Shown here piece by piece: positions 11,834 through 52,302 of a stretch of DNA of 64,000 nt. Made by a program: the position numbers and the translations under genes. How positions within the stretch are numbered: position 1 is the first letter of the stretch; the number at the start of each line of letters is the position of its first letter. This DNA comes from Dryococelus australis (taxonomy: Eukaryota; Arthropoda; Insecta; Phasmatodea; Phasmatidae), in the NCBI GenBank assembly GCA_029891345.1, contig CM057002.1, positions 60,068,777 to 60,132,776 of the forward strand, given 5' to 3'. Below the pieces are notes generated by a model. It was given only the letters and a program-made list of their open reading frames with translations, ran no database searches and was not told where the DNA came from.

Positions 11834-12412
11834 TCAACTGGCATTGTCCTGATGCCCGTTTGTTTGGCTTTGTACGCGACTCTTCTCGCCAATGCCTTGC
11901 TTCGACTTCTCGCCTCCACGTTCACCATTTTCGTTTCCAAGTGTTGTTTCTGCGACTTCGAGCCATCCGTCGTAATACTGCGCGTCACTCGCGTCTCCGC
12001 ATCCTGTGTTTGGGGCTGCAGTTGATATTTGTCGCTCTTTCGGCTGAGGATCTTCTCCCGCTACAGGTGCTTGGTCTGCGTCTGTCGGTACAACCTCGCA
12101 CGCTGTCGTTCCTGGCTGCACGCTCTCGGCTTCACCCGTGGTCATCTCATTATCGGCGGCTGGAGTCTTCGTCTCTGCGCCTGCCCCCGGGTTATCACTG
12201 CTCACCGCCCCCTCGTCCTCCTTGTCGCTCCTCCTGTTCTTTTCCTCCTGTTTTCGCCGCACTTCCTCCAGTTTCTCCCTCACCACCTGCTGGTCTATCT
12301 CGCTCCACCTCTCCAGGTTCGACTGACACTGGTCCAGGAGAGGCTGCGTGGAAGGGATGAGCTGGTGCAGCAGGCTGTAGCAGGGGATGCAGATCCCTGT
12401 GAGGAAGCCCAC
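11834..12412 (-). CDS. PDE10A: PDE10-like last coding exon (end of catalytic domain plus charged tail)
   Basis: Minus-strand exon of 579 bp, 192 codons and a TGA stop. The acceptor is [34 protein letters not shown] and [12 protein letters not shown] close the catalytic domain; F594 is the base-clamping phenylalanine. Residues 632-783 are a hydrophilic tail: a Glu/Arg/Lys-rich likely helix ([14 protein letters not shown]), then low-complexity Ala/Pro/Thr/Glu sequence without recognised domains. Vertebrate PDE10A stops soon after the equivalent of residue 631. The stop codon is followed by no clear polyadenylation signal; TATAAA on the minus strand near 11620 is a weak candidate. Confidence 0.92.
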   Translation of the reverse strand: MGFLTGICIPCYSLLHQLIPSTQPLLDQCQSNLERWSEIDQQVVREKLEEVRRKQEEKNRRSDKEDEGAVSSDNPGAGAETKTPAADNEMTTGEAESVQPGTTACEVVPTDADQAPVAGEDPQPKERQISTAAPNTGCGDASDAQYYDGWLEVAETTLGNENGERGGEKSKQGIGEKSRVQSQTNGHQDNAS

Positions 12413-15400
12413 CTGCAAACACAAGATGCGCACTTAATTGTGACACACTTGTTGGAGTTGATAGCGTACTGTTATATGCACATTCAACCAAACACAGACT
12501 GAGTTGCATGTGTTTTAACAGGCAAGTGGTTATCCATGCGATCATTCTGATAGTTTGTTAGGTGGCATGTGATATCGCAAATCCACCATTTTGCCAACCT
12601 GCCTCGGAATTGAGGCGACATAGCAAGAAATAAATTTATTTAGGCAATTATTGCACTGTTTGTTTATAATTTTTCATTAACGAACAGATTTTCAATACAA
12701 TTATAAACCATTATTTAGTTTTATTTGTTAGAAAGTTACTGCAAATGGAATTCAGCATTTCTATACAACTAATGTTCATATTGTTTTGGATGTACGTATC
12801 CACTGCCTGCAAATGTCAATTTTCAGAAGGAAGTGTATAAACATTTTTACTCGGGTATATTCTGTATTACTTATAATGGCTGAAAGTGATGTAGAGGTCA
12901 TAAAAATTATTAGTATCAAATAGTTTTATAACTGGTTATTCAGAGAACGTAACGAATCTATTGATCTCGAAAAAAAAAAACTAAACATCGCATGCTAAAC
13001 AAGCAGTGTCGTTATAAACATCGCATGCTAAACAAGCAGTGTCGTTATAAACTAAACATCGCATGCTAAACTAGCAGTGTCGTTATAAACTAAACATCGC
13101 ATTCTAAACAAGCAATGTCGTTATAAACCTTCTTCCAATAATACTGTTCAGCAAGTAACTTATTTGTCATCATGTAATAAAAACGCTCTTTTTGGTAGTT
13201 TAATTTCTTAACATATATATTAAGGAAATCATTTAATAAGCTTCTACAACAAAATATATTTCAGTACTCGAAGCAAATGAAAAAAAACTGCTAATTTATA
13301 ATAAAACATTTACAACGATTTAAACATAATGTATAGTCTATGTTTACGAGAAAATGTGTTTTTCAGCAAATGTATTACCATAAACAGAACATGAAGACAT
13401 AATTCGTCCAAATTATTTAAAAACAGACTGTTACAGTTATGTAACGACTTTAACAGATATAGTGTGAAATGATCAGAGTCCCTAATTAGTGTCAGCTACC
13501 TTAACAGAAGGTAATTTGTTAAACTCTTGCAATCTGGAAGAATTTTCTTGCCACACATTTCTGGGGTATAAGGTTATTTTGATGATGATGGTTATGACGG
13601 ATAGACAGTCAAATTATTCAGATATACATGTTCTCGTGCTGTACATTAAAATTTAGCTGAAGCTCTTAATGAGGACAAACAATGTCGTAATACATCTCAA
13701 CACTAAGCATCCGAATATTAAGGGCAGATCTTTCCGGTTGGCAGCTGTAAAATTTAAATAGGAAATCCCATGTTAAGGAAATTTCGATTAAGTTTCTTAA
13801 TTTTAATGATGGGTATTTAAAACAAATTTTATTCTTCACGATTTTTTTAGTAGAGGATATCTATGAGCGTATATTTTCAATATAGATAAACTATATGAAC
13901 TCTTTTGTAAAACATGAAATTTACAAATTCCTTCCAAACAGGCTATACGTGTTATGGAAACATCTTCGCTGTACGGAACTTCTAAAAAATTCACGAAGAA
14001 TATGTTTTGTCTGAAACGCCTATCTTTAAAATTAACGCACTAAGGCGAAATTTACTTGGTAGGCAGTGACCTTAACAATGTATTATCGGAACTGATTTAT
14101 TATAATTAATTGGTAATTGTTTTCCTGCCTAAAAATTTACAGTATCAGATGGCGAGGGAGGGCGATTGGGACAGAAGATTCATATTTTAAACCAAACCTA
14201 AACTTACGCTGACAATGTCTCTGCACAGACGAAAACCCAGAAATAGGAAGTTTAACATCACGATCCAAATTACGATCAAATGTCGTCCATTACGAATGGC
14301 CATAAAGGCTGTTCACTATAAAGTAACCACTATAGAAATGAACCTTAGAAAAAAGTCACTGCCCCTGCATGTATCTATTTTAACTGGCGCACTGAGTGAC
14401 ATTCGCTCAGTAAAGTCGTCAACGATAGATGTAAAGTAGTTCTATACATTAAAGTCGAGTAAAAAGTGTTAGGTAACCATTTGTGATAATTTAAAATTAT
14501 TTCTTTTGCTTTATGTTTTTTTTAATGCACACAAGTGTAAAAATTAGCAGACTGGTGAGTATTTACTTTCTTAATAATTTCACAGTTCCATTTGACCGGC
14601 GCATGAATAAAGTTATGGCCCATAGCAATGTTAATTTTACATCAGGTGGTGGAATGCACAGCATGTACACAAACAGATCTTAAGCAGGGCTTTCAAAAGT
14701 GCTCATTTTACAGCGAACAGTCTGTATAAAAAAGTTAGCAGCTTCAGGGGTTACGTCAAGGTAAAATGGGCAAATGATCTTGTCATCCATAGCGTACCTG
14801 TGAAGCAGCTTGCTGGTCTGGTTGGTTGCGGTCCATCATTGGAATAGGTATCCTGCCAGTTGCTCTCTCGGCATCACCCTGTAAGTTAATAAGACCTCAG
14901 AGCACAAAATTTTAATCTCTGAAAGACAAGGATCTAATTCCCTTGTTCAAAATTGGCGATTGATCAGAAGGAAGGATAGGAGGACTCTTATCATTGAATA
15001 GTCATGGGCAAGCACATCCCTAAAAATTTTACAGTTTTATCTAGACAAGATTTCACACTTGCTATCAAATTAATGAAGTGTGTTTTAGTCACGGGGCGCG
15101 TCAGACGTGTGTTATGAACTCACAAGTGGCAATACTCTGAATTGGAAGTAAGCTGTGCCCCTTCTTGTTATTGTTTTGGAAGAGAGTCTTTCTATCTTAT
15201 GACGTGTTAGTCAATTCTCAGCTGCCCTCAGGCATCTCCATACCATAATCAAAATGAATGTAGTTGTTCAAGTTTACGCCGTTTTACCTCTCGTGGATAC
15301 ATTTATAGCTGTCACTGCAATGGGGAACCTGACAAGTTTGATTTTTTAAGTGGAAAACTAGCCAGTGCTTGACCGAAAATAGTGTTATGCGCCTCTAGTG

Positions 15401-18400
15401 TGAATCCTAGTCGGTTGGATATACTAACTTAACTCCGAAGCATTTCGAGATATTAAAGAAGGTGTCCACTGTGGCTTCCGAAATTAAAATATGTATATAT
15501 TTTAATAACCTATAGTTGTTGTTCTCAACTAATATATTTTTGGGGGTCAACGAACAAGAAAATAATGTTGAAATAAATGTGACATTAATACTTATTACTA
15601 TGGCCAGTATGGCATCCAATACGTCTGCCAAAATAAAAATAGCTCGTATGTTACCTGCATGTTGGGCGTAGACATTTATCTTATTGGGTGTAGTTTCCAA
15701 ACAAATTGTTAACATTGGTTATTTACAATTTGTAATACCAGAAAATAGTGGATAAGAGTACTGTAGTTATTCAAGATAAATATGTAAGACAGAATTAATA
15801 AAGAAACAACTTTATGGAAATTTTGCTGGAAAACTATATATATATATAATTTCAGTAATATTATTTATACATATAATGGTACTGAAATTTTGAATAAACA
15901 AAAATTTTTGGGTACCTAAAATGGTTGAGTACAATCTACGTTAGAGAACAAAATATAATGATTTTGTCTAGATTATTGTAATACATCTTCATCAGAGGAA
16001 GTAGCCATACACTCGTCTTCTTCACCTAAGTCAAAGTGGAATGTAAGTGTGTTCTAACATTCACTTGTACCTTTACAGTTGAAAAACTTGGTATATCTGA
16101 CATGAGCTGAAGCACATCCACATCTTCCCAAACACATTTTATCCGAGGAGCAACCACACAGCATATCATCTTCACAATGCAGATGAGACTTTCTCAGTTC
16201 CAAGTGGCAAAGTAGTACGTTATAGTACTTCATTCATGTCGTCACGATACCATCCAAATAGTAATGGATACACATTTGGTGGGCTAGGTTTGTCACCATC
16301 TTTCCAGATACACACATGGAAATGCGCCCAGTCCATTTTCCCAGAGAATGGTTCTGTAGTACGTGGGATGCTTCTAAGTTTTGGCATACGGATCACAGCA
16401 TCCTTATACGTCTTTTTTCAGCCAAATATCTCTCCTTATGTCAGGCATTGTTGTGGTTTCGTGACACAAAATGGAATGCACAACCATCACGATATCCGAA
16501 GTATTGGCAAACTTTGATGCGGCACCCGAATCATGTTTTTCGGGACATGGGTCCTCTCCTGAAAAATGAACGGTTTTCCATCCCGCGCAACATACTAAGC
16601 GTTACCGGTGTGGTTTTGGATCACGTGGTGTGTTGCAGCACTCATGAAATAGGCTACAGTACTCATCAATGCAGATACACCCAACACAACATTAGGAGCA
16701 ACACTCAACAGTGCGTCACAGTTGGTTAGAAACTACTTTCTTCGCCAAGACACTCAACAGTGCTTCCCGAACTTCAACCCATACAAACAAGTAGCTCCTT
16801 GATGCACTTGCCACTATTAAGATAGCCATTACGCTATATATGACATAATTTTAATGCAGCTAGACAGTGTGTTTGTATTGAATTTTAGTGGAATGCTTAT
16901 GCCATAAATATGTATTATTTAAACACAGAGACGTGTTGAAAAGACACATTTTGTCTTACACAAACTGACTTTTGCACTTCTGTAAATCATGAATATGAGG
17001 GGGTACCACAGTAGCCATAATATATACTCCCCAATGACACACAATTGTGAGTTTTCCTGTTCATTGTCGCAGAAAATAAATCATAGACACCTGCCAAAAT
17101 TCATGCAGACAGTCAAAACCTCAAGGTGGACATGCTGGTGGATGAAGCGGCGAACACCAGCAGTCGTTTGTCAAGCTACGTACATCAACCAGTTGTTAAT
17201 GCTGCACTGTGGCATGTGGGTGCACTTTGGCATCGTTATAAACTGAACTACTGGATATAGACTTCCAAGCACAAGGCTTGTAGTCTGAGAATGGTACACT
17301 CGGGTTACCTAGAAGATAGTCTCATCGTATGAAGGTGAAGGTATCCAGCAGCATCTCTATAAGATCCAACTTAGAAGACACTTTTAAGACTACAGCGTAA
17401 TCATCTGGTCTCATACTTACGAATCAGCCTTAGTACCAAGAAAATAATTTGTAATTTTATGGAAATTCGTGTTTTTTTATTTTTATTCTTCATTGACATA
17501 AAGTAGGTTATGAAAAATTCGAAGCTCTACGTTTGTTTAATTATGAAAATTTGTAAAAAATATCAATAACAATATTTGACCCAAACTCAATTTTTACAAA
17601 GTTCAATTTTTTTTTCAGTTACTTACGAATATATTTTATATGTTACTACGTATAATGACATATAAACAGAATGATTTACCTGTTCGTAGAACTCTTGAAA
17701 TATGACCTGGACTGTCTTGACTTGCAGGTCCCATGGCTTGGCGCTAGCAGACAGATCACTGGCGGTCATTGTTATGGCCTGCAGCAGCAACCTGTGAGAG
17801 AATAAGATAACCGTGATGTGAAACAGGAAATTTCGTACACAATAACCAAGACTGATGAGTTTGACTGAACACTATGAGAGTCCATTCTATAAATTAAAAT
17901 CCAAATTTTTATCAAATTAAAGTTTATTGACTTATACTTCTTACAGTGTCCTGAGGAGAATACTGTCTGAGATGGGGAAATGAGTTTTTAATTATTTTAC
18001 AACGTAAAAATTTATCATGACATATTATTATAATCAGTGACGAATTCAATGAATATACACATGAAAAAAAAAAGACTGCCTTCTTCGCGTGTCTTGAGTT
18101 CTCAAACTTATTTTTGTTAACAAGATATCATTGCTTGTTCAATCCTGTATTCTTTACTAGTACTTTATGTACAAGTTATTATTTCCCTATAGCTATTGTG
18201 TGAGTCTCTCATTACTGCCAACCACTGTGTTGCCTGATCCTTAATATATGATATATAAAACACCAAAGGGACAACCCGACGTTGCCCGGATATTATTTGT
18301 CTTTTGATAATCTACAAATCTAGGTTTTTCGGTAAATAGTAATAACTCGGTCACTACCTATGACACAACATTCAAGCCATGTTATCAAAAAGAGGATAAG

Positions 18401-21400
18401 CATTTTTCTAACCACGACAATTAGGTGATGTTTATTCTTTGATTAAGATACCCTAACAGTCCCTGAAACATGGTTCCTGCCGCAAAGGCATATTTTTAAT
18501 CATAAAAAATAAATTTACATTATTAAATAAAGTAATCTAATTTTGTTGAACCTGTTCTGTGGCAGTGAATTTTACTTAATATAATGTAACGATTATATAA
18601 TCAGATTTGAAACGTCTCAATGACAGTATAAAATTCAACAATGCAATAATGACAAAGCAAATTGTTAATGTAACCATAGAAATGCAATTTTTAAGCATGA
18701 TAAAGCAAACTAAATTTGTCGTGCTTAAATTGCAATTGTTGCACATTAACTAAGTTTGTAGTGGCAAGCAGTAGCATACATTTGTTGGACTCCGTATGGA
18801 TTATTACATTCATTGCATGTGAAGGAATTTCACAGTGCGTTAGAAAGCACACAACGAATTTATAACTTCAAAACACGAAATATTCCAAACCGTATGATAA
18901 GCCCAGAAAGAAACAGGAACAGTTCATTCAGACCGTACATCTGCCTAGAGGACAGCAAATAAACAATGGACCTTTGCATTTAGCACCGAGGAGAGATGTA
19001 AGTTGTGAATGAGGGATACCGGACCCAGTTTGTTTGACATTTTGGACCTAGAGGATCGGAGCCTAATGTGGCCTACACTGTATTTTGAAATTATGCACTG
19101 CAGGATATCCCTGCCAAATTTGTTCCAGATCCATCTAATAGCGTAGAATGTATAAAGAACAAACTTATAAACGTACATACAAACTTTGACTTTTACGACA
19201 GTTATACCAACCTCAAAGTAGCTACTTTTTTTCAGGTATCTCCACAAATATCAAGTGGTGGGTAAAGTGAAGAGATGCCACGGTATATCACAGCAGTGCT
19301 GCACTGGCATACTAGATGGAATTTTCCAATTCAGTCGATAATATAATATATATGTCCTCTCTTGTTCCCAGAACCAATCTGACAGCACTTTGATATTATA
19401 TTTTATGTTGAAAGTTTCCAGCAATAAGATAAACCGTTCATCAACTAATGTCTCCTATAGTATATTAATGAAATGTAATATCATAATCGCCAAAAAAAAC
19501 CAAGAGCTGAACCATAGGAAATTAGGAAATATTTGACGCCTTTTGAAACTCTCTTTCATCAATATTGCTAACGTGAATTTTAAGCAAGTTATTAATGACT
19601 TTTAAGTTTAATCATGTTGGTCTAAACAGTACATTTATGATAATTCAATCATTTTACGAATGGTGTAGAGAAAATAAGTTTTTCACAAGAAGATGTATTT
19701 GTAACGAAGGAAAGAAATTAGTATGTGTATACAACAGTAGTGTGTGTTTATACTGCTGAAAGTACTATGGAATATAGTAATGAGACGGGGTTCCACGGTT
19801 AAACTAAACTAAGGATCAGTCCTGAGGACGTCTTTAGTGATGCAATTAGGTATGCTATTTTCTCTTTCTAGACCCTCGCCACATGAGTCTGAATCTCAGT
19901 TGTCAAGCACGTTCAGAATTTGAGAACTCTATTAGTGCAAACGAATTAATGGGTTGCTAACGTAATGTCTTGAGATAATTATTCGTGTTTATGTGAGAAA
20001 TACTTCTGCAATACATACTAAAGGCTGTTCACGACAAAGTGAGCACTTTAGAAATGAACCTTAGAAAAAAGTCACTGCCCCTGCATTCGTATATTTTAAT
20101 GGGTGAAAGCGAGTGACATTCGCCCAGTAAAGTTGGTAACGATGGATGGAAAGTAGTTCCATATCTTAACGTCAAATAAAAAGTGTTAGGTAACCATTTG
20201 TGATAACTTAAAAATTATTTCTTTCGCTTTCTGTTTTTTTCTTAATGCAAGGAAGTGTAAAAATGAGCATATTTGTAAAGTATTTACTTTCTTAATAATT
20301 TAAAGTTTCATTTGACCGACGCACGAATAAAGTGATGAGGCCCATGGCAATGTTAATTTTACATAAGGCGGAAGAATACACAACGTGTTTATATGTGGAT
20401 CCTAAGCAGGGCTTTCAAAATTGTTCATTTTACCGTGAACAGCCTATACCTAGCATTTAAATGTGTTAAATAGCTGTTTGTCGTGAATTACTAGTTTTAA
20501 ATTCAACATGTTGACGATGTCATAGATATTTTACTTCACCTGTGTCTGTAACTAGTCCAAACGAACTGGTTTGTGCTAACCAGTTCGAAAAGTTGAGCTC
20601 TGTTGGGGAAGAAGACTGCCAGATCAGTGGCGAGTATGCAATGTTTCACAAAGTCCAGTACCTGCTTGTATTCAGAGTTGGTTAGCTTGCTGAAGATGTT
20701 GTGTCCTTTCTGCAACAGTTAAAACAACATAGATCAATAACATTGCAAACAACAGAAAGCTCCACATCGGCAGAAGTGTGATAATTTTCTAAGGAAAATG
20801 GAATTGAGTAATTGGTTTAAATTTTATTATTTAGTATCTTTTTCGTGAGAAACAAAGAGTTTTAGAAATTTCAGTTTCTGCTATCTTCGTAATCAAATAA
20901 ATACTCAAATACTTTTGTCCTCTTAGCATCCTTGCCTAAGGTACAAATACTGACATCTTCACTTATTTATCTAAACCATTTTGGTTGCATAGGCTCTAAA
21001 TTCTGAAAACAAACAACAATCATGGAACCGTTTTCTGTTCTTTAGAAATTTAGGACATGCATTTCGTATCCATAAATTGCTGATGAAGTTAGGTACAATA
21101 ACATTATAAATCTGGTATACTAATAAGAACGTCATTATTGTGGTACTGTACGTTGCCCATTACTACATATTCTGTCGAGCTCGAAGAGTGCCAGCACCCT
21201 GCACTTATGACTACAGTCATCATTCATTGTAATTATCTGCTGCGATCACTCAGCAGTAAACAATTTCCTTTGTACGAATTGCCATATATCTTTCACCAGA
21301 CAGCACCGAATACAGTGTTTGTGCTCGTGAGCTCCAGGTCTCGAGTGGATTTTTCTCTCCCGCCTTCGGGTGAACTTCCTTTGGTGACAACCATCGAAGG

Positions 21401-24400
21401 AATATGGCAAGGGGGACACTATGTCACAATGTCATGTTGTGCGTAGAAAACTGGCGGGTAGCAAGTTTTGGGAGTGGATGCGCCAATCGGTTCTCGGTAG
21501 ACAATTTAGAAGATGTAGCGAACAGCAAGAGACATCGTAGCAATCAGCCTGATTTCGTCATTTTGCATGTATCAGAACACAATGCACGTTTGAGTCAGCA
21601 TTTTGGTGTTTCACAAGCTCAAATAAGCACAAGAGAAGAATTAAAAAACATATATTTTGATGTAGTCGCTACAATTTAAATATACATTCGAAATCATGCT
21701 ATAGCAGGAGCATAAACAGCAGCCTTAGATATCACAGTGCGCAAGATTAACCCAGCATTTGTTCCAGCAATTTAGCTACCTGCTTTCAATATCCGAACAT
21801 TTGATGACCAGTGCGATGAACGGATTTGTTTTTATACACATTTCAATCATCTTCAATCCTTAATGCACAGCAACACATCACTCAGTGACGTAAAAATTAT
21901 TTCACTGTTTCAGATCATCAATGTAACGTGATGCGGCAGATGTTATTTGGTAGTTGGGAATATCTGCACAGAACTATGGAGTCGCGTGTAATCTTTTGAG
22001 GGAAAGGTTGGAAAACAAAATAGTTTTGGTGAGCAAACAGGAATCAACACTTTGAACATCCCGTCACATTCAAGTGGAAACATCCCATTACATTCAAGTG
22101 GAAACATCCCGTCACATTCAAGTGGAAACATCCCATCACATTCAAGTGGAAACATCCCATCACGTTCAAGTGAAAACATCCTAAGCATAGTTTTAGCAAG
22201 CCCAAGAAATTCATTAACTGAGATAAGCAAACTCTGAAGGATGCTGAGCGGACTACACTCATATGGACATATCGGCAATCGCAAATAAATTACATCGTAG
22301 ATAAGGCACAGCGACTACAGATAGATCTCTCCCATGTGAAGAAACATTAATTGTTTTCCTCGATAATGCCACTGGCAAAAACAATTTATCATGTATACCA
22401 ATGCCTAAAACCGTTTCTTAAGTGGTGACAATGGCATCACTTGTCACTGGAGCAAGAGAATGAAGTCACATGGAGTGATAAGTGAGAGAACATGATGTGA
22501 CAATCGGATGAATACACTTGGACCTGGTGTATGGCCCGGCACATGGTATTATCACGAGGATGCTCTGTCGAAACTGAATTTTGGTGGTGGTGGTAGTGCA
22601 ATAAGCTGCTGCTGTTTATCTTGGTGCATGCTTGACCCATTCATTTTAATTGGTAGATCGATGAAATCTGGCACGTAGCCAAACATCTTAAACTATATCA
22701 CAATTCTCACTCTTTGGCAACAGTTAGAAATATAACATTTCCTTCTTCAGTACAACATTTCTCCTGTCCACCAAGTAAGACCAGTCAGTTCAAGGTTTGA
22801 AGAAAATCAGATTAAGTTACTAAACTGGCTTAATCAACCCAAAAGAAAGTTTTTCAGATGAGGTGAAATATTGTTTGCGTTCCAGACCCACGCGACCACA
22901 GTCAAAAGTCTACTATTCGCCATGTTACAGGGAAAAGAAAAACGAATCCCACCAAATATATGCCATAACTTACTAAATGTGTATTCCCAGAAGTTAAAGC
23001 TGCAATAATAGCAAAAGGAGCTCCAAATTTATATTTGTCACATGGCTAGCACCTCTTGAACAGACATCACTATTTGTTCTGTGGCGTTTGACCTAATGTG
23101 TACATTCAAATCATTTTCTCGCAATGTCACACATAAGCACTAATTGTGCACATGAATGTCTATTACGAGTTTTTCTATATTTCGTTATAGGTAAACTATG
23201 AGTCGTAAAATAACCATGCAAGTTTGCATCTTCCTTATTCACATTATTATCTCTGATGATTTTCAGAGGAGTCTCTGGTGGTTGTACTAAACGAAGTACG
23301 AATGTCTTGGTTCACATATTAATAAACACTCGAAGTTATTAAAATACAACATAGTATAGTTATTAAAATATAGGATCACTCATATAAAAACGCAATATTG
23401 TTATTTGCATATAAACATGCATTTCTTTAGCAAATTTTTTAAAACTGGTATTACACACACTAGGTTCACATACATATTTGAGTCTTTTAGATGGATTTAT
23501 TTTGAAATTTTTAAATGTTTTGTTAGGTTTAGCAGATAATTTATTTTTTCCTCAAATATATTATAAAAGGAAGAGCGTATAATATCTTTGCAGTTTTGTA
23601 TTATCTGCTTATACACTGTTATGTCAGCACGTACAATATTTGTTCTATTATTAATAGTAATACGTTAAATTTTGCAGTTTAATAATTTATTACATACCGA
23701 AAGGAAGTAGGCAGTATTGCTTATGGATGGTTGTAACACACCCCACTCTCCCACATGTGATACGTAATACTGCGTGAAGTAGGAACCAACGACATACTTG
23801 AAGCGAGTGAAATAATTTCAGCGTGTGTATCTACCTACCTGTTGAAGGATGGTAACCGTCTGGTTGAAGTGATGGTGCTCCATGGTGGATGTGCTGTAAA
23901 TGGCAGCCAATGGCGACTCTGTCTCTAACATGAACTTGTTGTTCTTCCCTCTGTGGTCCAAGTCGTGACACAGGGATGCCACATATAGAGCCAGAGCCTG
24001 CACAAAGTGGAATATAAATAACATAGTCCGAGTTGGAAAAAAAATATTACTTTAAGAGAACCATCCCAAAGAAATTAAAAAAAAAAAAAAAAAAAAAAGA
24101 TAGCTACTTAACATGGATCCATAATTTCTACAGAACTACATAAATTGCACGTGCCACTGCAACTAAAGTTTCTTTTGACGCGAATACGTCTTTAAATTTG
24201 CGACCATAGTGGGAGGCAAACCAGAAAATCCGATGATAAAATCTGGGGATAGAGTTTGGCATTGCAGCTCCGAATCTATCGTCTACATTCAAAATGCAAT
24301 TACACCACTCGATTACCAAAGGATCAAAGAATATGTTACGTCGAGTTAGGACCGCGAAGCATCGCGTGTTGAAGAACGGGGTGTTTGGGTGAAAGGGGGG

Positions 24401-36400: not shown

Positions 36401-39400
36401 GCATGTCACTCAATGCGGCCCTTAAGTATATGCGGGCAGTGAGCTTTTTCTAAGGTTCATATTGAAAAAGTGCCCACTGTGAACAGGAAGGGTAGGGTAT
36501 GAGAGGCTACTCACTGGTCGAGCCCCGGGACGCATTCGGGCACGCCGGCCCGCAGAATTCGGCCGACCTCCTCCTCGGAGCACGTGTTGTGGTAGCTGAG
36601 CACGTCCAGAGCGACGCGATACTTCTGCTCGGAGCGGGCGATCTTGTCGTAGAGCTGCGCGTGGTGCAGGGCCAGCCCGCAGTACACCGCGAACATCTCG
36701 AACGCCTCTTCGTCCTCCTGCAACCGACGAGTGTCCTCGTAACATACACCCCAACCTCCGCCGCTGCCCAGATCAGCACTCAAGTACGCACACACTCTAT
36801 GGCCCTTATTCGTAGTCGTTTTCAGTCCGGACTAAGGAAACATCATACTCCGACCAAAATGTTTTCGTATTCAGAGAGCATTTTTTATTTCTAGTCCGAG
36901 GATCATCTTGCTTTAGTACAGCTTAACTCTTAGTCCGGACTGAGGGTAGGATTAACGAAGAATTAAGGTCAAAAATAATCATGGTGAACATAAAATACGA
37001 CAGTTTCGTTAATATTACATGCCAGTGAAAGCTAGATAAAGTTTACGAAGCATAAAAAATTACGTTTAAGGCCGGTTCTGTCAATCTTTATGCAAAAATA
37101 TGCCGGCCTAACGAATGAAATGTTCCTTGATAATAATTGATAGGAAATATACCTTATAAGCTTAATAATACATCAGTTTTTAGCTACAGCAATGCCTTTC
37201 AATTTGTGTGTCAATCAAATGCCTTTTCTGAAAAGAGATTCTTAGGAGACATTATATTAATACACCCACGGAGAATTCTAATAAAAATCTAACGTTGGTT
37301 ATATGTATATATATGAAAGTATAAATTCGTTACTAGAATTAATTGGTAGCTCAATGGTAACATTGTGGGATCGGTCGCAGAAAAATGCAAGTTCGAATCT
37401 CTTCTCGGAGACCGAATTTTAACCAGTTTATAATGTGTTTTTGTATTGTATTTAACATTAGAATACTCATTTAAAATCATTATACAGACACTATTGACGT
37501 AATAAAATGAAACCAGTGCATTGGGGTGTGCTATGAAAATGTAACAAACCAATATGGAATAGTATGATATATTAATTTTATCGTTCTCCATTCTGCAGTA
37601 TTGCCATATATGATACAGTCATAAAACAAGGGTAAAATGAATAAAGTGACGTTAATGTAATGAATAATGTGATTTGTTTATACGAACAGGAAAAAAACAC
37701 ACCACATTACCGAGAGCATCACTTTTGAATGGAAATAATCAAAACAAAATATAGGGCCAAGATATTTTATATACACGTTTTCTATACCAAAGTTGCTGGG
37801 TACAATATATTTATATTTACAAAACGTATACTTTTATTTTAAATTCATCACACAGTATTGTTGCGTGCTGCAACTGGCGCCGACTCAGCTACCCCGCGCC
37901 GTAATCGGAGACCCACCTCGCCCTCCCCTCTTCCTGGAACGATGCTGCTCGCAGCCTCCTCTGCCTCCCCCCTCCTCTTAGAATCCCGTGAATGCCGACA
38001 GCGTAAGACTTGCTGGCGTCACAGACCTATACTCGCCTGCTAGAGTTTCCTATACGTTTAGCGACGACGCAAGAATATTCTGGTGAGACTGGCTGGCCCC
38101 TCAGCCCTCCGCGACGCATCACGCGAGTTGGGGAAGAATCTAGATGGTGGCCTAAGACACCGCGAGCGAGGTGTTCGTGGTTTGAATGGACGAGAGTGTG
38201 TGAAACCAACGAGTGAAGCCTACTGTGCGTGAGGGCGCTTGGAGGACTCTAGAACATTGCGACTGGCGGGACATGGACTGAACTGAGGTGGGACTTAATG
38301 GAAGTGTAATACTGATTTTATTGTAAATATTCGAACTGACAAATATGGAGGCATAAATTATAAAATAATTGAATAGGTTCATACACTGTCTATTGGGACT
38401 GATTTTTTATTATTTAATTTCATTGATTTCTCTGTCGTAATTATAAATTTTATTAATTGGTTTCAATTGTGAACAGTACGTAATTTTAATTTATTATGAG
38501 AATTTGAGTTTAGAGAATTTTGCTGTAGTTATTGTAAATAAAATAAGGACATTATAATTAATTATTTTATTTGATTAATACCTCCATCCCTTAACGAACT
38601 TGGTATAACCCACTTAGTGTCTAGAGAGAGAAATTGTAACAGTATAATAGATTATAGTCTTTTTCTTGTTATGTACATTAAGATTATTGTAAATTACTAT
38701 TAAATTTTAAAAGAAAAAACATTTTTTTCTTTTAACAAAAACTTACACTTTTATAACTTTACCGCTTCGCTGGACTCGATCGGAATCTAAGTAAGAAATT
38801 ACAGAGAGTGAACATTTGATTTCGTAAGAAGAAAACTGTTCTTTTATAGTAATTTCTCAAATGAATGCGATAGGTTTGTTAGATCTGTTACACCTGTCGC
38901 GACACATTTATTGGTACGCAGTAAACGCGTGACTTTATTGGCCGACGGGTAGCCAATAACAAACGCTACAGAGTGCAGTAGGCGTGTGCGGTGTAGCCAG
39001 GACCAATAGGACGATCGTAAGTGTAAATTCAGGGACCAATGCAATAGATATTGCTGCAGTCAGCGGCGTGTGGTGAAGTGTTGCAAGGTAAGCTGTTTTT
39101 GCTCAGCGCTGTACCTAATCGTTTGCTAGTTTACGCACCGTCCACTTAAGGTTGAAGTAAAGCAACTGCCTATGGAGAACTGCACCCGACAATACGACGT
39201 GTGGAACGCATTAAAAAAGTAGTATAGACACCTTAAAAATGGTCAGAACAGTGTGATTTATGTTGCATATGAAAAAAGAATGTATATATTTTGCAACTTT
39301 TTTAGTAAAATATACTTTTAAATGTAAACAGTTAATCGATCGATTGAGTCCATATTTATAACAAAATTTATGCGCGTTTTAGATTTGGATGCTTCGGAAA

Positions 39401-42400
39401 GCAGAGTTTACAAGAAAATTTTCTTCAAGAAAGATCGTCATAAAATTTACTGTGATCATCTTTATATATATATATATATATATATATAATTCTTCTGTGC
39501 GTGTGTATGTCACTAAACTCCTCCTAAACGGCTGGACCGATTTTGATGAAATTTTTTGTGTGTGTTCAAGTGGATTCGAGAATGGTTTAGATTCACAATT
39601 CGGTCCACTACAAAATGTTTTTTTAATAAATTTTTTATTTATAAGTTATTGTTGATCTTGGAATGTTTCACATTGTATCCGGCAGACAGCGCTGTGATCG
39701 CGGTGTCGAATATCCAAAAATATTTCATTTTACTTCCAGTTTGTCCCGATAGTGGCGCTGCGATCAGATTCAGGAGAATTTCGTAACTTTGTGTTGTTAT
39801 TGTGTTAAAATAAATCGCGTGCTAATTGAAATATTACATTCAGATGTAATTAGTGTGTGAAGGGTTTTGAAGTGTAGATAAAAACTATACATTGTGCAAA
39901 TTTAAGTTTCTATTCAACATAGCTTCTATATTCAACTTAGCTCATAGTATAATACATATTCACACGCAATCGATAGGTCGAATTGTGGTAACTGTACATG
40001 TGATGACGTCAGGTATTGTAATAACTTTTTTTATAAAAATTTTCATCAAAACGGTCCAGATTGTTACAACTTATTAAAAAAAGTTTGAAAATTTCGGATT
40101 TAAGACATATGTACAGGACGTCTGTCGGGTCCGCTAGTATTTAATAAAATAATAGTAATAATATATCATATTAATTGTATGATTAGCTTTATTTGCATCA
40201 TTTTCAACCATAAATGTTTGTGACAAATGGACGCACATATAATCAATTACAAAAAATTATTTCCTACAATATTGCCACAGCTTTCTTACGTACTATAATA
40301 GTAAACATTATGACGATATTCTATGACGAAGAATCCCTTGCAAACTCTGCTTTCTGAAGTATCCAGAATGGAAATATGCTTAAATTTAGTTAATAACACA
40401 GACTATTTGAAACGTTTATTTATTACATTTAAAAAGTATAGTTTAGTAAAATATTTTATAATGTTTCAAAATATATACATTCTTCTTTCATACACATAAT
40501 AAATGGCACTTTCTGAATATTTCTATGGTGTCTGCACTAAAATTTAATGAGTTCTTCACATTGTATAGTCAGGTGCAGTGCTCCACAGGCAGCTGCTTTA
40601 CTTCAACCTTAAACACAGTAGTGTGCTTGACGTCACGGCAAGTTTGCAACGGGTGCCTCGCCGCTCTCTCGTGAGTGGCCGCAGTACATTCAGTTTCTCC
40701 CGGCTCCACCCTGGTTACTGGTTCCTGCTGCGTGCGCCGAGTGTGTACAGCACCGAGCAAGCACCAGCTTACCTCGCAACACTTCACCACACACCACTGG
40801 GTGTACGTAGTGGAGAACATAGGCAGCTCACTTGAACCTTGTCCTCATTGCCAGTAATTTTTTGCTATCCTCGAAGGGTTAACATTGATCTTCGCAAGCT
40901 GCAGTATAAGTAGAGACCTGAAGAATTCGCGGATTCATTTCGGGACAAGCAAGAATTCTAAACAAGCGCGTTTTATATAACTTTAGCCATTGGTCCACAC
41001 GGTGTTTGACACCTCCTGGAGAACGGTGACCAATCGTTTCCTTCCGCTCTAGCAGCAGACAATCAACGTGTTTTTGATACGGGCATATTTGTACATAAGA
41101 CTGTAGAGTCTAGCCTGCAGGTAGAGACGTGAGAAATTCGCGGATTCATTTCGCAACAAGTTAGAAATCATGAGCGTGTACATATTTGTCACTTTTGCAA
41201 CTGGTCCACGCGTTTTTTTGACACGTCCTTGAGATTTCTGGGCCAATAACAAACTTACAACAAAACGCATGTCCAATCAATAGCGGTAGTGAGATTTCGC
41301 GAAAGTATTCCGAGACACGATATGTTTCAAAACACTGTAGGGTCGTCTACCTACCTTGATTGGCTGAATTACTTTTTGACACGTGTTAACTGTCTGGACA
41401 CGAATCACGTAAGAACCGTGCCAATGTTGTCGAATTCTGATTGGCCCGGTCAAATATGACAACTGCTTCTCGAGCATACAGCAAACCAACGCCAATAGAC
41501 GAACTACTCTTGTGTGCTTATAGCATTGAAGTCTACCGTGTACTCATACTTGTTCGCGAAAAATCACTAACTCAACCAATCAATGCCATCCACCCTGGTA
41601 GCAAGCAACGAATGAGACGTTGATATCTGATTGTTTGTACATAGGACTGTGGAGTCTAGCCTGCAGGTAATTGAACTCGGGAATTTTCCAAGTGACCGAG
41701 TACTTAAGTAAAGGCCGTTCACGATAAAGTGAGCACTTTTGAAATCAACCTTAGAAAAAAGTTACTGCTCCTGCATGCATATATTTTTAACGGGCGCACT
41801 GAGTGACATGCGCCCAGTGAAGTTGGTAATGATAGACGGAAAATAGTTACACAACTTTACATCGAATAAAAAGTGTTAGGTAACCATTTGTGATCAATTA
41901 AATCATTTATTTCGCTCTCGGATTTTTTAAATGCATTAGCAGTTTTTTTTTAAATGCTTACTTCTGTTATGATTTAACAGTTTGACTTGACTGACGCATG
42001 AAGAAAGAGATGAGGCCCATGGCAATGTTAATTTTACGTAAGGCGAAGGAATACACAACGTGTACGCAATTAGATCCTAAGCAGGGCTTCCAAAAGTGCT
42101 CGTTTTACGGTGAACTAGTCAAGTAGCGTCGTTACCTTGAGGAAGCGGCCCGAGTGCTTGTTGACCATCTGCACCACGCCGATGACGCCGTCGCCTATGA
42201 AGATGGGCATGCAGAGGATGGAGTGCGTGCGGTAGCCGGTGAGCTGGTCCACGGCGCGGTTGAAGCGCGGGTCGCAGTACGCGTCGGAGATGTTGAGGAC
42301 GTCGCCCGTCAGCGCCACTTGGCCGGCGATGCCCGTGCCCAGCGGGAACCTGCGCACGCACAACACCACTTGCCACTCACTCACAGCTTCTCTGGCGTCC

Positions 42401-45400
42401 AGTGCGACTTGAGGCTAGGAGTTGAGCGCCCCTGTCGCGCCTTCGACAATTGTATTGTATCGTGAAGGGCTTTTTAACTTCCCCCCCCCCCGGTTGTATA
42501 CTTGGAAGCTTAGCAGGGGATGGCTTACACACTGACTTATAACTAGGGATAGGAACATTTCGCGAGTTCATTTCGGGGCAAGATAGTAGTTAAACACTAT
42601 CTATAGTGAAGTCACCTTCTCGATAGGATCACGCCGCTGAGCCAATAGCAGACTTGCAAGGAAACACCTTGCGAATCCCATAACTGCCAGGTGCGGGGCA
42701 ACAACCAATGGACACACAGCTGAGGCTCCAGTATACAGAGGACTGAGGAGTCTAGCCTACAGGCCACTGAACTCGCGAAATTATCCTATCCCTACTTTTT
42801 AACCTAACTTAAATTAACATCCATGCCTTGCCCGGGACTCGAACCCAGAGCCTTGACGGCGCCACGGGAGGTCGGCGCCGTCGATTGTATTTGACAATAA
42901 AATTTGAAGACAAAATATTGCCATAAAATTTTTCCTCACAATGAATTTTATCAAATAATTTTGAATGCGTTTGAAAATGTGTCACACTGTCAAATTATTT
43001 TACTGGGAGAATCAGATTATAAATATTATTTAAAAATAATTTTCATAGTTAAACATTGCTTTTGTTTTTCCATGCAGTCCATTACAAGAAGAAATGTAGG
43101 GAATGTTGAAATTTATTTTCATTTCTTTACTAAATTAAAATTTTATTTATCAGATACGTTTTCTGCACAATGTTATTTAATGCCTCTGAAATCGTAATGT
43201 GTAATATTTACTTAAAATAACATTTACGCCCAAGACAGCTCTACATAAATTAATTATCTTCATAACCTACTTCGTTTCCAGAAGTTGTCCGTTATTTTAA
43301 AGTGCCTTGGCGTCAATTTTTGTCGTGCACCATTCTGATTGGCTGAGACCGTCAAACATCAAATAAATTTCAATACCGGTCCAATCTTCAAATGTTTAAT
43401 GAGAACTGAAGCTATCCAACTTTCACAGACAAATATGTAGGGTGGGTCACTCGCGGATTTTCGCACATGTGGGAAATGTGCCGGACGATGCAGCTAGACG
43501 GCGAGTTTTCTTGGCGATCTCCCCCCCCCCCCCGACCATTCATTCACGCGCTGCTCCATACTCACCTCCATCGCAATTGTCGGCTCTCAAGACCTCGGTG
43601 TTAAGAGCCGCCGGAATCTCTTCACCCACTCACTCGCCTACTTTCCCTCCACGCGTCGTAATGGCAAACGAGGTGTTGCTGGGGTCCCAACCTCGACACG
43701 AGCGGCACGGTGTCACTCAATCACCGACGAGAAGAAGGGAATGCGGGGCGCGGCCAGACTATATAAACGGGGTCGCCAGAGTGTCGGCCATATTTATCCC
43801 TCTCCGGACCTCGGATCACTGACAGCGCAGGGTGCTGGCGCCGCTGACAGACTTCGAGCTCCAGTGACCACGCGAGGGGAGAAGATCCACTACGAGGGGA
43901 TCCTGAGAGGTCTTCTCCGCGGTGCGGGCCTAAACGCCCCGCCAATATAATATTCCAGTGGTGAGTGATTTGGATAGCTGTGGATATCGAATGGATTGTT
44001 AGAATGCTCCAGTAGCAGTTTAATTGAGGAGCATTTACTATTGAGGTTTGATAACAATTTATTGCAATAGATTCAACAAAATAAATAATATTTTACTTAA
44101 TCACAGGAGAGTTATTTATGTAAAGAGTATTCCTGATCAATAGAGTATTTGTCAAGTGTGTTGTGAGTCAGGACTACAAGTCCAGTTGGCAGGAGCTCAA
44201 AAGTAAATTATAGCTATGCCTCTAGTCTATTTCCTAGAACCCTTTGTAGTAGGAAAGGGTAATAAAACAGTGTGCTACACTGCAAAAAAATTGAGGTAAA
44301 ATTACCTGTCAAATGTGGAGTATATTTACATAACGTACGGAAAAAGTACCTGACAAAAACATTAAAAATATTGTACAGAGGCCCCTGGGACATGTGTGTA
44401 AAGGAGCGAGGGAATGAGGAAATAGAGACCACGGGGCCTCTTTTAAACGACTCATTCTGTATAACGAATTTATATTTGAAATTACACGGAGTATTAGTAC
44501 TGTTAATTTTTTTTTTATTACCAATGCCCTCTTACGAAGGGTAAGAGAAGCCTCATTACTAAAATGCTCGACACTTGCTAGTGGGCGGGCGCGAACCATG
44601 GACCTTAATCACGACAGGCCGATGCGCCATTCATTACATCACGACGGTGACACGACAGCACAAGTGAATATAAGTGTGTTACGATTCTTTCTTCCGCCCG
44701 TCCTATCACTTTGCTGTTGAGATAATGCTGAAGAGATGTACACGTCGTAAAGTAATTTTCCCATCCATGTATGGGATTTTTCTCTATAGTCCATTCACGG
44801 TTTCTTCGACCTTTTTGAATAAAACCTTTGAAAAATCTCCCCATGTTTGAAGTGTTTAGTTATTTCCTAAATACGCCGTGTATCACAAGCGTTTTATACT
44901 TGTGTTCGTAAAAGTCACTTTTTTTCTGTTAAATTGAAATGTTATTCATATTTTATAATGCTTCATTTATAAATAATCTGAATGAAAAACAGGGAGAAAA
45001 TTGGCATGTTGGTAATGGTTAATGGTAAATAGTCATTATATAAAATACTGTTACACTGAGTGCGCACGAATGTGGGTGCGGTGTCCCTCTGGTGTAATTT
45101 ATCAGGCTTAGATAAGTTTAGCTTGTGCGAGGCGGAGTAATATCCTGGAAGTAGAACTTTAGCAGGGCTTCAGAAAAGGCTGAAGTAACAGTGAATGGAC
45201 TATACCATGTATGCCACTTTGACTCCAGAGTGCGCTAATTTTACCTTACATGAAAGGAAAACTATGTTTCCCACACAAGTTTGCGAATATATTACCTTAC
45301 GCTTGTCAGGTAAATTTACAATTATTTTTGCAGTGTACATGAACGCTCTGACGGGGCGAACAGAGCGAGGTTGGACCACGGCCTCACCTGATCTCCTTGG

Positions 45401-48400
45401 GCGTGGGCACGACGGACTGCAGCACGTCGTCGGACGAGGGGTTGTCGCCGTCCTCGTCCGAGCTGGACACGCCGACGTCGAAGACGCGCGCGTACAGCTC
45501 CTGGCTCTTGGAGTCGACGAGGAACAGCGACGCCCTGTCCGCGTCCACCAGCCTCTGCGCGAAGTTCATGATCTTGATGACGAGGGCGTCCATGCTCACC
45601 ATGTCCTGGAAGATTGACCTGCAAACCACGCAACCGCCTCGCTCACACAAGCTCATCTTTATGCAGAAGGCCGCCTCTGACACCAGCTGCACAAATACAT
45701 GGTGATTTACGAGCAGTTCCCGCCACTCACAGGGCTTATTCCTAGAGACCTGAAGAATTCGCGGATTCATTTTGGGACAAGCTAGAACTCAAAACACGTG
45801 TGTTTATATAACATTAGCCATTGGTTCACACGGTGTTTGACACCTCCTGAAGAACTCTGGCCCAATCGTTGCCTTCCACTGTGACGGCAGACAACCAATG
45901 CACAGTTTACGTCGACAAATTTGTACATATGACGGCAGAATAGAGCCTCCAAGTCATTAAACTCACGAATTTTTCAGGTCTCTACTTATTCCTTACATCA
46001 TTTGGAGCAAGATATGACAATTAAACGTCAGTTCTATTCCTACTATTTACAGAGTAATTCTCCGACGTTCCGTGGCGCAGTCTGTTGGAGCTCCACCGAG
46101 CTGGGGTGCGGGAGGCTCTGGGTTCGAATCCCGGGTGTTAATTTAAGTTAGGTTATAAGTTATAAGTTAGTCTGTAAGTCATCCCCTGCTAAGCTATCAA
46201 AAATAAAACCAGGGGACGTTAAAAAAGCCCTTTACAATACAATACATAGTAACTCGAAAAATTGGAAATGCCATACAATGAACAGCTCGTGACTTATTGT
46301 TAGGGATAGGAAAATTTCTCCTCAGTCCTTTGCATAGCGGAGCCTCAGCTGTGTGTTCATTGCATGTTGCCTCACACCTGGCAGTTATGGGATTCGCAAG
46401 GTGTTTCCTTGCAAGTCTGCTATTGGCTCAGAGGCGTGCAGGGCGGATCTAATAAACTGTGATCCAAGTCTATCTTGTCTCGAAATTAATTCGCGAAATT
46501 TCCCTATCCCTACTCGTTGCTTACCAAAGGACTGCACAAACACGCGAGGAACTACTTGGGCGTATCATGTATGCCACCACAGGAATCAAATTTATCCGTG
46601 TGCACTTCTACACGTGCGGATCATAAGCGTGCGGAGAAATGCATGGAAGTGGACGGAAACACATTTTTGCATTTTTTTTGTGAGCCTGTTAGACGCAATT
46701 GTGATGCTCAACTGTAAACAATACAGGCTGATAATACATCACTGTATTTTCCTCTGAAAGGGTTATTATTTTATTCGTAATTTTTCAAATGTTTCGAATT
46801 ACTCTGTTAAATATTGGGAACAGGACCCACATTATGTGACATATTTTGCTCCAAATGTTGTAAGGAATAAGCCCTGTCAGTGGCGGTAACTCCTAGTGAA
46901 TCATTCTGTATACAATGTATTGCCAGCCAACCTCGAAACTGACAAACCTGCAAATATTTACAAACAGAAACTGAAACACATTTTATCAAGGTCACTGAAC
47001 TTATTCACTGCAATCATTTCATGGCGCTGAGATGAAACCGCAGCAGTATCTTGAATAGGCCATTCACGGTGAAGTGAGCACTTCTGAAAGTCCTCTCATT
47101 TAGAATAATAGTCAATAAATATATTTTATTGTAACTTTAGACGTTAACTTTCGAGTCCGGTGGAATAGACGCACTGAATTTATTACTTACATGACAATAT
47201 TAAAAAAGGTACTTAAAAGATAAAATTATGCCCGGAAGGAAAAAGTAACTAAGGCCTCAAAAGTGCTAACTTTAACGTGAACAGCCTTTAACAGAGGGCT
47301 ATCTTATAAATAATATTATTCAGGGCAATTTTCAATTATTAATGATTTATATATTGTTTATTGATTCTTTGTACACCAAAGACTATATTTGCAATAAAAT
47401 ACCAGCATCATTTTTAGAATTTTTTTTCTAGTTGACTTTTACTTGTAGTAGTATCCAATAAGTGTTTGCAGGTATAAGCTGTTCACGGTAAAGTGAGAAC
47501 TTTTGAGGTCCTAGTTACCTTTTCCTGTCAACGATTTTTTTATCCTATAGCCACTTTTTAAAATAAATATTGCCGTGTAAGTAATAAACACAGTATTTAT
47601 ATTCCACCGCACTCGGAAGTTAACGTATTAGGCTAAAATTAAATATATTTATTGACTATTATTCTAAATGAGAGTGCTTTCAAAAGTGCTCACTTTACCG
47701 TGAATGGCCTATAAAATTTTAATAAGTTGAATGAGGATTGTAACAATGCCCCGATTGGTTCACGTGTAATAGATTGTCAAGTGTACAATTGACCCCAGGC
47801 TTAAGAGTCCTACTTGACAAATTCCGATATTACATGTACGATGTAGTCCAATGTGATAATATAATAGAACGTAAATAAATTAAAATATGTTTATTCTACT
47901 TAGCTAAGGAACGAGCCGAAGTTCATTGCGTTGGAGTTCGTTGTAAGGAAAGCCAGCCACATACACATCCACACACATTGCTTCCTACTAGCATAACTGG
48001 ACACAAACTACCTATACCATTACAAACCTTGCTATGTAATATTTTTATTCATCCACATATTTTAAACTACATGGAAAGAATGAAACCTACCCAAGAGTGT
48101 TTTCATTCGACACTCGCCTTCGTGAAGTATTTGGTGCCCACTATTGAGAGCGAGGTGAGTATGGAGCATCGCCGAAATGAAGTGGGGGGAGTAAACGGGA
48201 GATCCCCGAGAAAACCCGCGGACCAGCGGCATCATCCGGCATGATTCCCACTTGCAAAAATCCGAAGTGACCCGGCCGCGGGGATCTAATCCGGTCCGCC
48301 TTGTTGGGAGGAAAGCAGGCTAACCGCTCAGCCACCGCGGCCCCGGAATATTACGCCGGAAGCACAAACGCAGCATTTCGCCACTCCCCGACATTTGCAA

Positions 48401-51400
48401 ATCGGGGCATGAGATCCGCCAGGTGCAAGCCATAGATGGTTTTGCGTAGACTGATACCTGTCGTCGACATAACACCAAGCCAGCACGATATACTGTACCT
48501 GCCAGAAGCCGAAACATAGACAAGTCGACCAACGTGTGCCACAAAATTATTTCAACAATGGATTACAAAGTTAAGGTGGAACAGTTCAGACAACAAACTA
48601 GTGTCATTAAAAGTGTGGGTACGTAACCTTCATTAACATATTTAACACTGTGAGCTTCCATCTGCGATTACGTTTTTTCAGTTAGCCACATGTTGCAGTG
48701 TTTTGTAAAACTGATGACTTTCCATTAGATTAATTTAAACTTCTACTTAATGACGTGTGCAAACTCACCATGTCGAAATATTATGTTTGAATTTATTACG
48801 CCATAATAAATAAACTTCATTCGTTTCTGAACAGGGGGCCACGGTGTTGTAGTGGCTAGACTACTCGCCTCTCACATAAGCGAACCATGTTGGATTCCTG
48901 GCGGGGTCGCACCCGGATTTTCACATTTGGGAATCGCCCTTGTATCCCGGCGCTGCTCCATACTCACCTCACTTCATCCTCATCGGCTGTTGAGACCCCG
49001 ATGTTAAGGTGGCCGTCTGGTTGAACGAATTTCGTACAACTGAGACGTAAAAGCGTGGGAGCGCTAGGAGCGACCGAGACGTGCCCATCAACTACTCTCT
49101 CATCGCCTCTGCAAAGCAATGAACTGGCGTGCAGTCTTATCGTCGATAACAAGCCTCTATGAGAATTTCAGCAGCGACCCTACCATTTTATGATGTAATA
49201 ATAAAAATAAAGGTTTGTTACACATCCCTAGTCCTTTTTTAACATTTTGTACCGGAATGTTAATACCTTGAATTGACAGTGAAAACGCCAGTTTCAGTCA
49301 TTTTACACTATCACAAAAAATGCTTTATAGAGAATTGCGCGAACACCCGTATATCTGTAAATAAATGTTCTGTAAATACGAATTTTTGCAAAAAAAAATG
49401 CACCCCTAGCTTTATATATATATAAAGCTAGGGGCGCATTTTTTTTGCAAAAATTCTTCGAGGGAAGAAATCGTGAAACTGGTCAAATATAGCAATTTTA
49501 AAGCTTGCCTATGCAATGTCTTTAAGTGGCAAAAGGAAAGTAGTTTAATCTGTGGGATTTCATCGCTGTAATAAAACCCCTATGTTACAGATCTAATTTA
49601 CACAGTACAGCGTCACCGACGGAAACACTGCACGCCTTGCGCGTAGGAGCGATGAGGCGCTAGAAGTGCGTGTTAGTGTCGCCCGTATAGCTCTCTCGCT
49701 TCTTGACCTCGGACGCGGGGTTCCCACGGGGTTGCATCCCACCCTCAAACGCTATTCGTAAGGAGACCTCGCTCAGACACGTTTTTACAATGAAACGTTT
49801 TTCTGCCGGAGCTAGTTGGGCGGCCTACCCACCCAGGCGGCGGGCCAATTCCCCCCCGACTAACTTGACGACGGTGAGCAGGAAGTCCGCCAGGCGGCGC
49901 TGCTTGTTGATGGAGACGTAGAGGTGGGCGTAGTGCAGAGCGATGCCGCCCCACACCAGGTAGCTGCTGGCTATCTCCTCGTCCTCCTCGTGGAACGGCG
50001 GCGAGCTGTCCCGGCGCCACAGCTCTACCACCGCCGCCACTTGCCCGTCTGGCTGGACCACAGGCTGCCACAGCACGTGGCTCGCGTCCCCCTGCAACCA
50101 AGTCCGTCCACGATCAAGTGAGCACTTCAGAAACGAACCTTAGAAAAAAGTCACTAACCATGAATCCGCGTATTTCAATGGGAGTACTGAGTGACATTCG
50201 CCCAGTAAAGTTGGTAACGAAAATATTGCTATATAAAAACATCTGAAAAAATTAATGATGTATATATATATTTTCGGTTATATGTGAATTTTAATATTAC
50301 ATTTTAGAAAATAATATACTAAACGAAACAATCGGTAAGATCTCGTAACATAGTAACATTCCTTAAGACATTTCACGTAGAATATTTTTTGTTTAAAATA
50401 GTTATCTTTAAAATTGACGCAATGAGAAGAAATTTAGTTTAATATTGATTCCCCACTTGAAGTTCGCGGCCGCCGGCTTGCTACCCAGGCCCCTTTAAAC
50501 GTATTCCTTCAAACAGCATAAGTAGCATCAGGCACCACCTCTAACAGTTTGCAACACTTAAGACGTTCAAACATGACTGCAAGCTGGAAGAGTTAAGTAT
50601 GTCACACATCTAGAAGTACTGTATATAACTCAGGTGCAACAAGACGTTCGTGTGTGAGTGGACTCACAATAGGAAGATCCCCAGCCCGGCCAACCAGATT
50701 TCAGTTATCCATTGTTTTCAGTAATCGCTCTAGAATGGTCCTACACAGGCCCTTGCCGATTCTCTCCCCGTTCCTGAATGTCTATTGTTCCCCTACTGAG
50801 GCCTTGTTGCTGTTCCGGAAGATGAAAAATACGTAACAAATTAACAAATATTCTTAACCAACCTCCGGTGCATAGTTGGCTACACGCCGGCACACGAGGC
50901 GAAGGGGTTCCGGGTTCGAGACCTGGATAGGGCATCTATAGAGCTAGTGAGTTTTCGAGGAAAAAAAAAAATGAGTACGTGGGAAGCTTAAATGCTATTA
51001 GTGCCCAACCGCAGTTAGTACATTGCAATTGGTTGCTGAACGCTCGAGAAGGCGTTTTCATATTCGACAACAACGGCATGGCTCCTACGTGCTTCGTGTC
51101 CAGATGGCTAACATGCGTCAAAAAGTAATTCATCCAATCAAGATACGTGAACGACCCTACAGTGATTTGAAATGTAAATTTTCTTGAAATCTTTTCGCGA
51201 AATTTCACTACCCCTACACGCCTGTACTGGTTGCCGTCTGTGTGATAATTCCTCTAATTTTCGTTAAAATCGACAGTGGGAAGAAAGTAAAGAATTGCTC
51301 TGGGTTCCATAGCTTGTCAAAATTTCGCTAAAGAATAAATTTGTCTAAAAAATAGCAAAACACCTGCATAAGGAAGATTTGAAAAACTATATAGTGAATT

Positions 51401-51719: not shown

Positions 51720-51742
51720 CTACGAGCAGCACGTGCTTGTGT

Positions 51743-52302
51743 TGAGCCCCTGTTCCACCATCAAGTATTTACGTTCAACTATATCTGACAACGAAATTTG
51801 AGGAAAAAAAAAACGGCTATAAAAATTTTCCTTCCACAAATTTTATCAAATAATTTTGAATGTGTTTGAATGTGTTACACTGTCAAATTTTTTTACTAGG
51901 AGACTAATTTGAATATTATTCTAAAACTATTTTCGTCGTGCGATATTACTTTTGTTTTTTCATTCGGTATATTACACGAAGAAATGTAAGTAATATTGTA
52001 AATTATTTTAGTTTCTTTATTAAATTAGAATTTTATTTATCAGGTATGTTTCCAGCGCAATTAATTTGACGTCCGTTTTTGTAGTGCGCGATTCTGATTG
52101 GCTGAGACCGTCAAACATCAAATAAATTTTACAACCGGAACAATTTTAAAATGTTTGGTGGAAACTGAAGCCATCCAAATTTCTCAGACAAAAATGGCGG
52201 CGTTTATGACGTTTCGATGACGTCATAACTGTCCAACTTTATTTGACCAAACTTATTGGAAGCAGTTTGACGGAAAAATTTGACATTGTGACAGGGGCTT
52301 AA
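51743..52302. mobile_element. M4 element, complete copy
   Basis: The left end TGAGCCCCTGTTCCACCATC matches the right end inverted (GACATTGTGACAGGGGCTTA). The body is shared with 42890-43440. Its left end lies about 24 bp upstream of the exon 1 acceptor. Confidence 0.8.

Follow-up and report, generated by a model that had tools for sequence, protein, structure and literature searches.

Transposable elements beside the splice donors of a PDE10-like gene in the stick insect Dryococelus australis: non-random placement in one gene, a mostly unsupported rule for others

Whether transposable elements come to lie at exon edges by chance or by preference is a question raised by a 64,000-nucleotide stretch of the genome of the stick insect Dryococelus australis (C10:60068777-60132776; the whole of this stretch is called the window below). 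The window carries a PDE10-like gene on its minus strand, and miniature inverted-repeat transposable elements (MITEs) and short interspersed nuclear elements (SINEs) lie close to several of its exons. If exon edges do attract insertions, intron growth and splice-site damage in large genomes would be driven in part by a directional process that repeat maps alone could reveal. Non-random placement is supported in the PDE10-like gene, where an element begins shortly after six of the nine donors tested. As a rule for other genes, a general preference for exon edges is mostly unsupported.

The six elements begin 20-92 bp into their introns, measured from profile-called element ends. The donor of exon 3 is followed at 58 bp by an M3 inverted-repeat element (44571..45329, with an M2 copy nested at 44788-45206). 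M1 MITEs follow the donors of exon 4 at 20 bp (41710..42115, plus strand), exon 5 at 28 bp (36081..36486, minus strand), exon 8 at 92 bp (20020..20447, plus strand) and exon 10 at 72 bp (14304..14725, plus strand), and an M2 MITE (31693..32127, plus strand) starts 52 bp past the donor of exon 6. These are the same exons, and the same range of distances, that a sequence-only reading of the window had named. The nearest element to the exon 2 donor is 856 bp away and introns 7 and 9 contain no library element; the close donors belong to six of the seven introns that hold an element. The same reading had placed elements about 10-30 bp from the acceptors of exons 1, 2 and 6, which holds for exon 2, where a 119-bp M1 fragment (50102..50220, plus strand; profile positions 5-123) lies 8-10 bp upstream, and fails for exon 6, where the SINE before the acceptor (32486..32677, minus strand) is 37 bp away by BLAST and 68 bp away by profile.

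Chance placement is an unlikely source of the donor pattern. When the same elements are re-placed in the same introns, 0.5 donors are expected to have an element within 95 bp; six or more were reached in none of 20,000 shuffles, uniform and TA-restricted alike, and the exact P for six of nine is 4.7e-7. M1 taken alone gives four donors against 0.29 expected (P 5e-5). These P values are optimistic because the 95-bp limit was chosen by the sequence-only reading after the data had been viewed, but the sum of log gaps, a statistic free of any limit, also gives P <=5e-5. At the acceptors within the nine introns, one element lies within 95 bp, with 0.5 expected (P 0.41); the M1 fragment before exon 2 falls outside the introns tested. 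A single gene can thus deviate from random placement at about 5e-7, and the same measure is usable in a genome-wide scan for others.

The M1, M2, M3 and SINE families were defined in the present analysis from the sequence and may differ from those of the earlier reading. M1 is described by a profile of 427 positions, and its ends are inverted: GGCTGTTCAC reads inward from both in the majority of the 47 near-complete copies examined, a set that includes 30 recovered by searching for M1 itself. TA borders these copies on the left in 91-94% and on the right in 87-91%; the TA is possibly part of the element, because no empty site was seen. Tc1/mariner-type MITEs target TA, and in its short length, inverted ends, TA borders and very high copy number M1 resembles them, which makes that superfamily a candidate. 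An internal 22-mer of M1, allowed up to three mismatches, has 148,522 matches in the genome against 24 for the reversed control, a density of 0.043 per kb. The window contains nine of these markers against 2.8 at the average density, a 3.2-fold enrichment (P 0.002). M2 has a profile of 432 positions and its ends appear to be of the TA type, like those of M1. M3 is an inverted-repeat family with two copies in the window, one of them interrupted by M2, and the SINE family has six members there. The stretch GGTTCAATCCC in the SINE at the exon 6 acceptor resembles a B box, part of the internal RNA polymerase III promoter of a tRNA-type SINE. Only the names of these families are new; elements of this kind are already known.

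Several features of M1 stand apart from its placement. The left inverted end of the consensus carries the donor-like AAAGTGAGC, and ATGAGC occupies the corresponding place on the right end; the right end faces the exon in three of the four donor-adjacent M1 copies. At window positions 47055-47712, two M1-related pieces, only weakly detected by the M1 profile, face each other in inverted orientation, with 147-nt arms that are 86% complementary and 364 nt between them. Outside the window, at C1:11654960-11655399 and C1:7308694-7309191, the M1 22-mer is arranged in tandem, with seven occurrences at 68-70 bp steps and with 68- and 204-bp steps, respectively; these M1-derived arrays may represent a satellite that arose from a MITE.

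The gene itself is traced as ten exons, numbered 2-11, on the minus strand between 11834 and 50091, with matching phases that splice into a single open frame. Homology, splice joins and the open frame define all ten. Exon 2 (49865..50091, acceptor at 50091) encodes the end of GAF-A. Exon 3 (45388..45618) holds the start of GAF-B, which continues in exon 4 (42136..42349), and exon 5 (36515..36717) precedes exon 6 (32180..32417), where the catalytic domain starts. Exons 7 (23839..23997), 8 (20540..20709), 9 (17680..17791) and 10 (14798..14878) lead to exon 11 (11834..12412), the last, with the stop codon and a long, acidic, low-complexity C-terminal tail 3' of the catalytic domain. The nine introns measure 2.4-8.2 kb; the sequence-only reading had given 1.5-8 kb. 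For the exon 1 that this reading had placed near 52302, and for the upstream part of the gene, tblastn and the open-reading-frame translations of the window gave no PDE10 homology, which leaves nine donors for the test where the reading had counted ten. The identification as PDE10-like is likely but falls short of proof, because PDE10A gives the top score for the GAF-B exon (86.2 bits vs 81.8 for PDE5) and for catalytic-domain-only chains (303.5 bits vs 241-247 for PDE5-type proteins), whereas the full-length chain totals of PDE5A (415 bits) and PDE6 (323-329 bits) exceed that of PDE10A.

Does the pattern extend to other genes? The genome searched comprises 3.415 Gb in 646 contigs, from which 103 conserved exons with 206 flanks of 200-1500 bp were sampled. 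Phosphodiesterases contribute 25 exons (from 30 matches, after leaving out three inside the window and the loci L001 and L002), kinesins 28 of 86 matches (the long single frames L009 and L010 excluded), myosins 20 of 72, TCP1 20 of 50, and tyrosine kinases 10 of 147, hand-picked from higher-scoring matches that lie in short frames. Outside the window, splice sites were predicted with simple weight matrices, and the edges are less exact in 27 of the 103 exon matches because these contain stop codons. L001 (C2:29082820-29083521, plus strand) resembles PDE2A and encodes 740 residues in one uninterrupted frame; the other PDE genes have several exons, and L001 may be a retrogene.

Within 95 bp of exons, the sampled genes show no preference. 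Elements occupy this zone in six of the 206 flanks against 5.5 expected under random placement within flanks, and donors in the window remain far above the sample even on a conservative count of M1 and M2 only (5/9 vs 3/103, P 5e-5). Farther out an excess is possible. The near edges of 15 elements fall 95-300 bp from exons vs 6.3 expected, in a count with 100 bp trimmed at flank ends, where elements cut by the flank end would otherwise go unseen, and with a stricter hit threshold; the count draws on just 26 elements, and its bins were set once the data had been viewed. Kinesin genes alone give seven against 1.75 expected (P 9e-4). The concentration within 0-300 bp was matched in none of 20,000 shuffles, and near-edge rates per kb run from 0.26 (0-95 bp) through 0.46 (95-300 bp) to 0.07 (300-600 bp) and 0.07 (600-1500 bp).

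Whole-genome counts agree with the absence of close hugging. An M1 end lies 16-76 bp past the GT of the donor-like motif AGGTRAGT in 358 cases, against 384 on the exon side (P 0.36). The number of M1 ends after this motif rises with the gap, from 358 (10-70 bp) to 435 (120-180 bp) and 584 (270-330 bp), with the exon-side control covering only 10-70 bp. By a rough estimate with assumed intron numbers, true donors make up 5-10% of AGGTRAGT motifs, so that the count speaks against an excess of three-fold or more and leaves room for a mild one. The M1 marker, with six occurrences near the sampled exons, shows no excess there over its genome average (0.034 per kb at 0-300 bp, 0.052 at 300-600 bp and 0.033 at 600-1500 bp). 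These tests narrow the claim: elements do not generally crowd exons within 95 bp, an excess may exist at 95-300 bp, and the donor bias is not seen outside this gene. As causes, the sequence-only reading had offered a GC step or open chromatin at exon edges, or growth of introns from their edges. A step in GC or TA content as the cause is rejected, as the long flanks have a GC content of 0.35-0.40 and 76-98 TA per kb with no clear step and restricting the shuffles to TA left the window result unchanged; accessible chromatin and growth from intron edges are taken up below.

The account that we tentatively favour treats the elements as routine insertions into introns by non-autonomous families of very high copy number, filtered by selection, and the PDE10-like gene as an extreme tail case. 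The elements involved are two MITE families with TA borders (M1 and M2), M3 as a smaller family with inverted repeats, and a SINE, probably of the tRNA type. The families, their TA borders, the distances, the local M1 richness and the donor bias of this gene are observed, whereas the filtering by selection and the tail case are inferred. The MITEs would insert at TA dinucleotides, and copies that harm splicing would be purged. Only about 6 bp of the intron are needed by a donor, against roughly 20-50 bp by an acceptor; because the donor signal is the shorter, close copies should be easier to tolerate at donors. The tail case would arise from a locus with about three times the genome-wide density of M1, together with the tendency of elements in the sampled genes to sit slightly closer to exons than a uniform distribution predicts. 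Once the 3.2-fold local richness is combined with sampled rates of 0.256-0.455 per kb, six or more close donors out of nine have a P of 9e-5 to 0.0018; the gene still stands out, though less sharply.

Several observations count against this account. It depends on the M1 richness of the locus as well as on the excess near exons, because plain random placement gives a P of 4.7e-7; across the 33,793 annotated genes of D. australis, a figure taken from the genome report (PMC10268593), only 0.016 such genes would then be expected. The ease with which donors should tolerate close copies is not visible in the sample either, where elements lie within 95 bp of 3/103 donors (all PDE) and 3/103 acceptors (two PDE, one kinesin). 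The excess at 95-300 bp is weaker at donors (6 vs 2.8, P 0.03) than at acceptors (9 vs 3.5, P 0.00095), which sets the sampled genes apart from the gene in the window.

A doubtful competitor, and a sharper form of the idea in the sequence-only reading, is an integration bias to exon edges, in which accessible DNA, such as the linker beside an exon-centred nucleosome, is the preferred target and selection clears the last bases. The six donors of the PDE10-like gene, the excess at 95-300 bp and its strength in kinesin genes are all in its favour, and one study reports that introners, like many DNA transposons, insert into the linkers between nucleosomes (PMC9860276). Such a bias does not sit well with the lack of any excess within 95 bp in other genes or after donor-like motifs genome-wide, with motif counts that climb with distance, or with an M1 marker density near exons equal to the genome average. 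We likewise think it unlikely that TA-target MITEs and the SINE favour the first few hundred intron bases beside exons, perhaps in the nucleosome linker. The repeat landscape would in that case carry an imprint of exon position, contrary to what mammals and cereals show, and the imprint would be nearly complete in the PDE10-like gene.

Fainter still is the prospect of a gene-class effect, under which PDE-type genes tolerate close elements, perhaps through weaker constraint or M1-rich regions, and housekeeping genes do not. PDE genes outside the window have an element within 95 bp at 3/25 donors and 2/25 acceptors, compared with 0/78 and 1/78 in the other genes, a weak excess at donors (P 0.013). 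The M1 marker is found four times at PDE loci against 1.4 expected (P 0.055) and falls below average at non-PDE loci, with two against 6.4 expected (P 0.045). These numbers are small, and some of the PDE matches are weak: L004, next to a donor, scores 17.6 bits and L114 scores 47.6 bits. The gene in the window also exceeds the other PDE exons on the M1 and M2 count (5/9 vs 3/25, P 0.017).

The donor bias would be a fossil of intron growth if short ancestral introns took up elements first and later grew on the far side. Introns 8 and 10, each with a single library element at the donor end and 1.9-2.2 kb beyond it, have the expected shape. The donor-adjacent M1 copies are, however, not the most diverged, with identities to the consensus of 0.883, 0.895, 0.957 and 0.889 against 0.76-0.92 for seven interior copies. 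Growth from intron edges is rejected as unsupported because these copies are no more diverged than interior ones, and the fossil reading is improbable. Introner-type gain, in which the elements made the introns, is exceedingly improbable and is rejected for the present introns: although M1 is a short inverted-repeat element near donors and introners are often DNA-transposon-like (PMC9860276), no element spans any of the nine introns or touches both splice sites, the introns are kilobases long, and two of the nine lack a library element altogether.

Apart from these elements, the window contains tandem arrays at 3038-3396 (20-bp unit), 5113-5464 (44-bp unit) and 22031-22205 (24-bp unit), and an Rfam scan of the window returned zero matches. 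A literature search found no title on MITE placement relative to exons in stick insects, a weak negative given that most subscription journals lay outside its coverage.

In human and mouse, intronic elements avoid splice sites, with underrepresentation zones that measure 50-100 bp for SINEs as a whole and for DNA elements, and the closest intronic elements favour donors over acceptors, a bias ascribed to the donor signal being the shorter of the two (Zhang, Romanish and Mager 2011, PMC3088655). The PDE10-like gene shares this donor-over-acceptor bias, which is absent from the other genes sampled. Unlike the mammalian pattern of depletion near exons, this one gene is enriched at donors and the sampled genes have an excess at 95-300 bp. 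In cereals, the frequency of class 2 non-autonomous elements peaks mid-intron and falls toward splice sites (PMC3579700); the stick insect resembles cereals in its plentiful intronic MITE-type elements but differs in that its sample is highest at 95-300 bp from exons. Introners, whose linker and genic preferences are discussed by Gozashti et al. (2022, PMC9860276), are likewise short DNA-transposon-like elements tied to introns, whereas the elements of D. australis neither span introns nor supply both splice sites.

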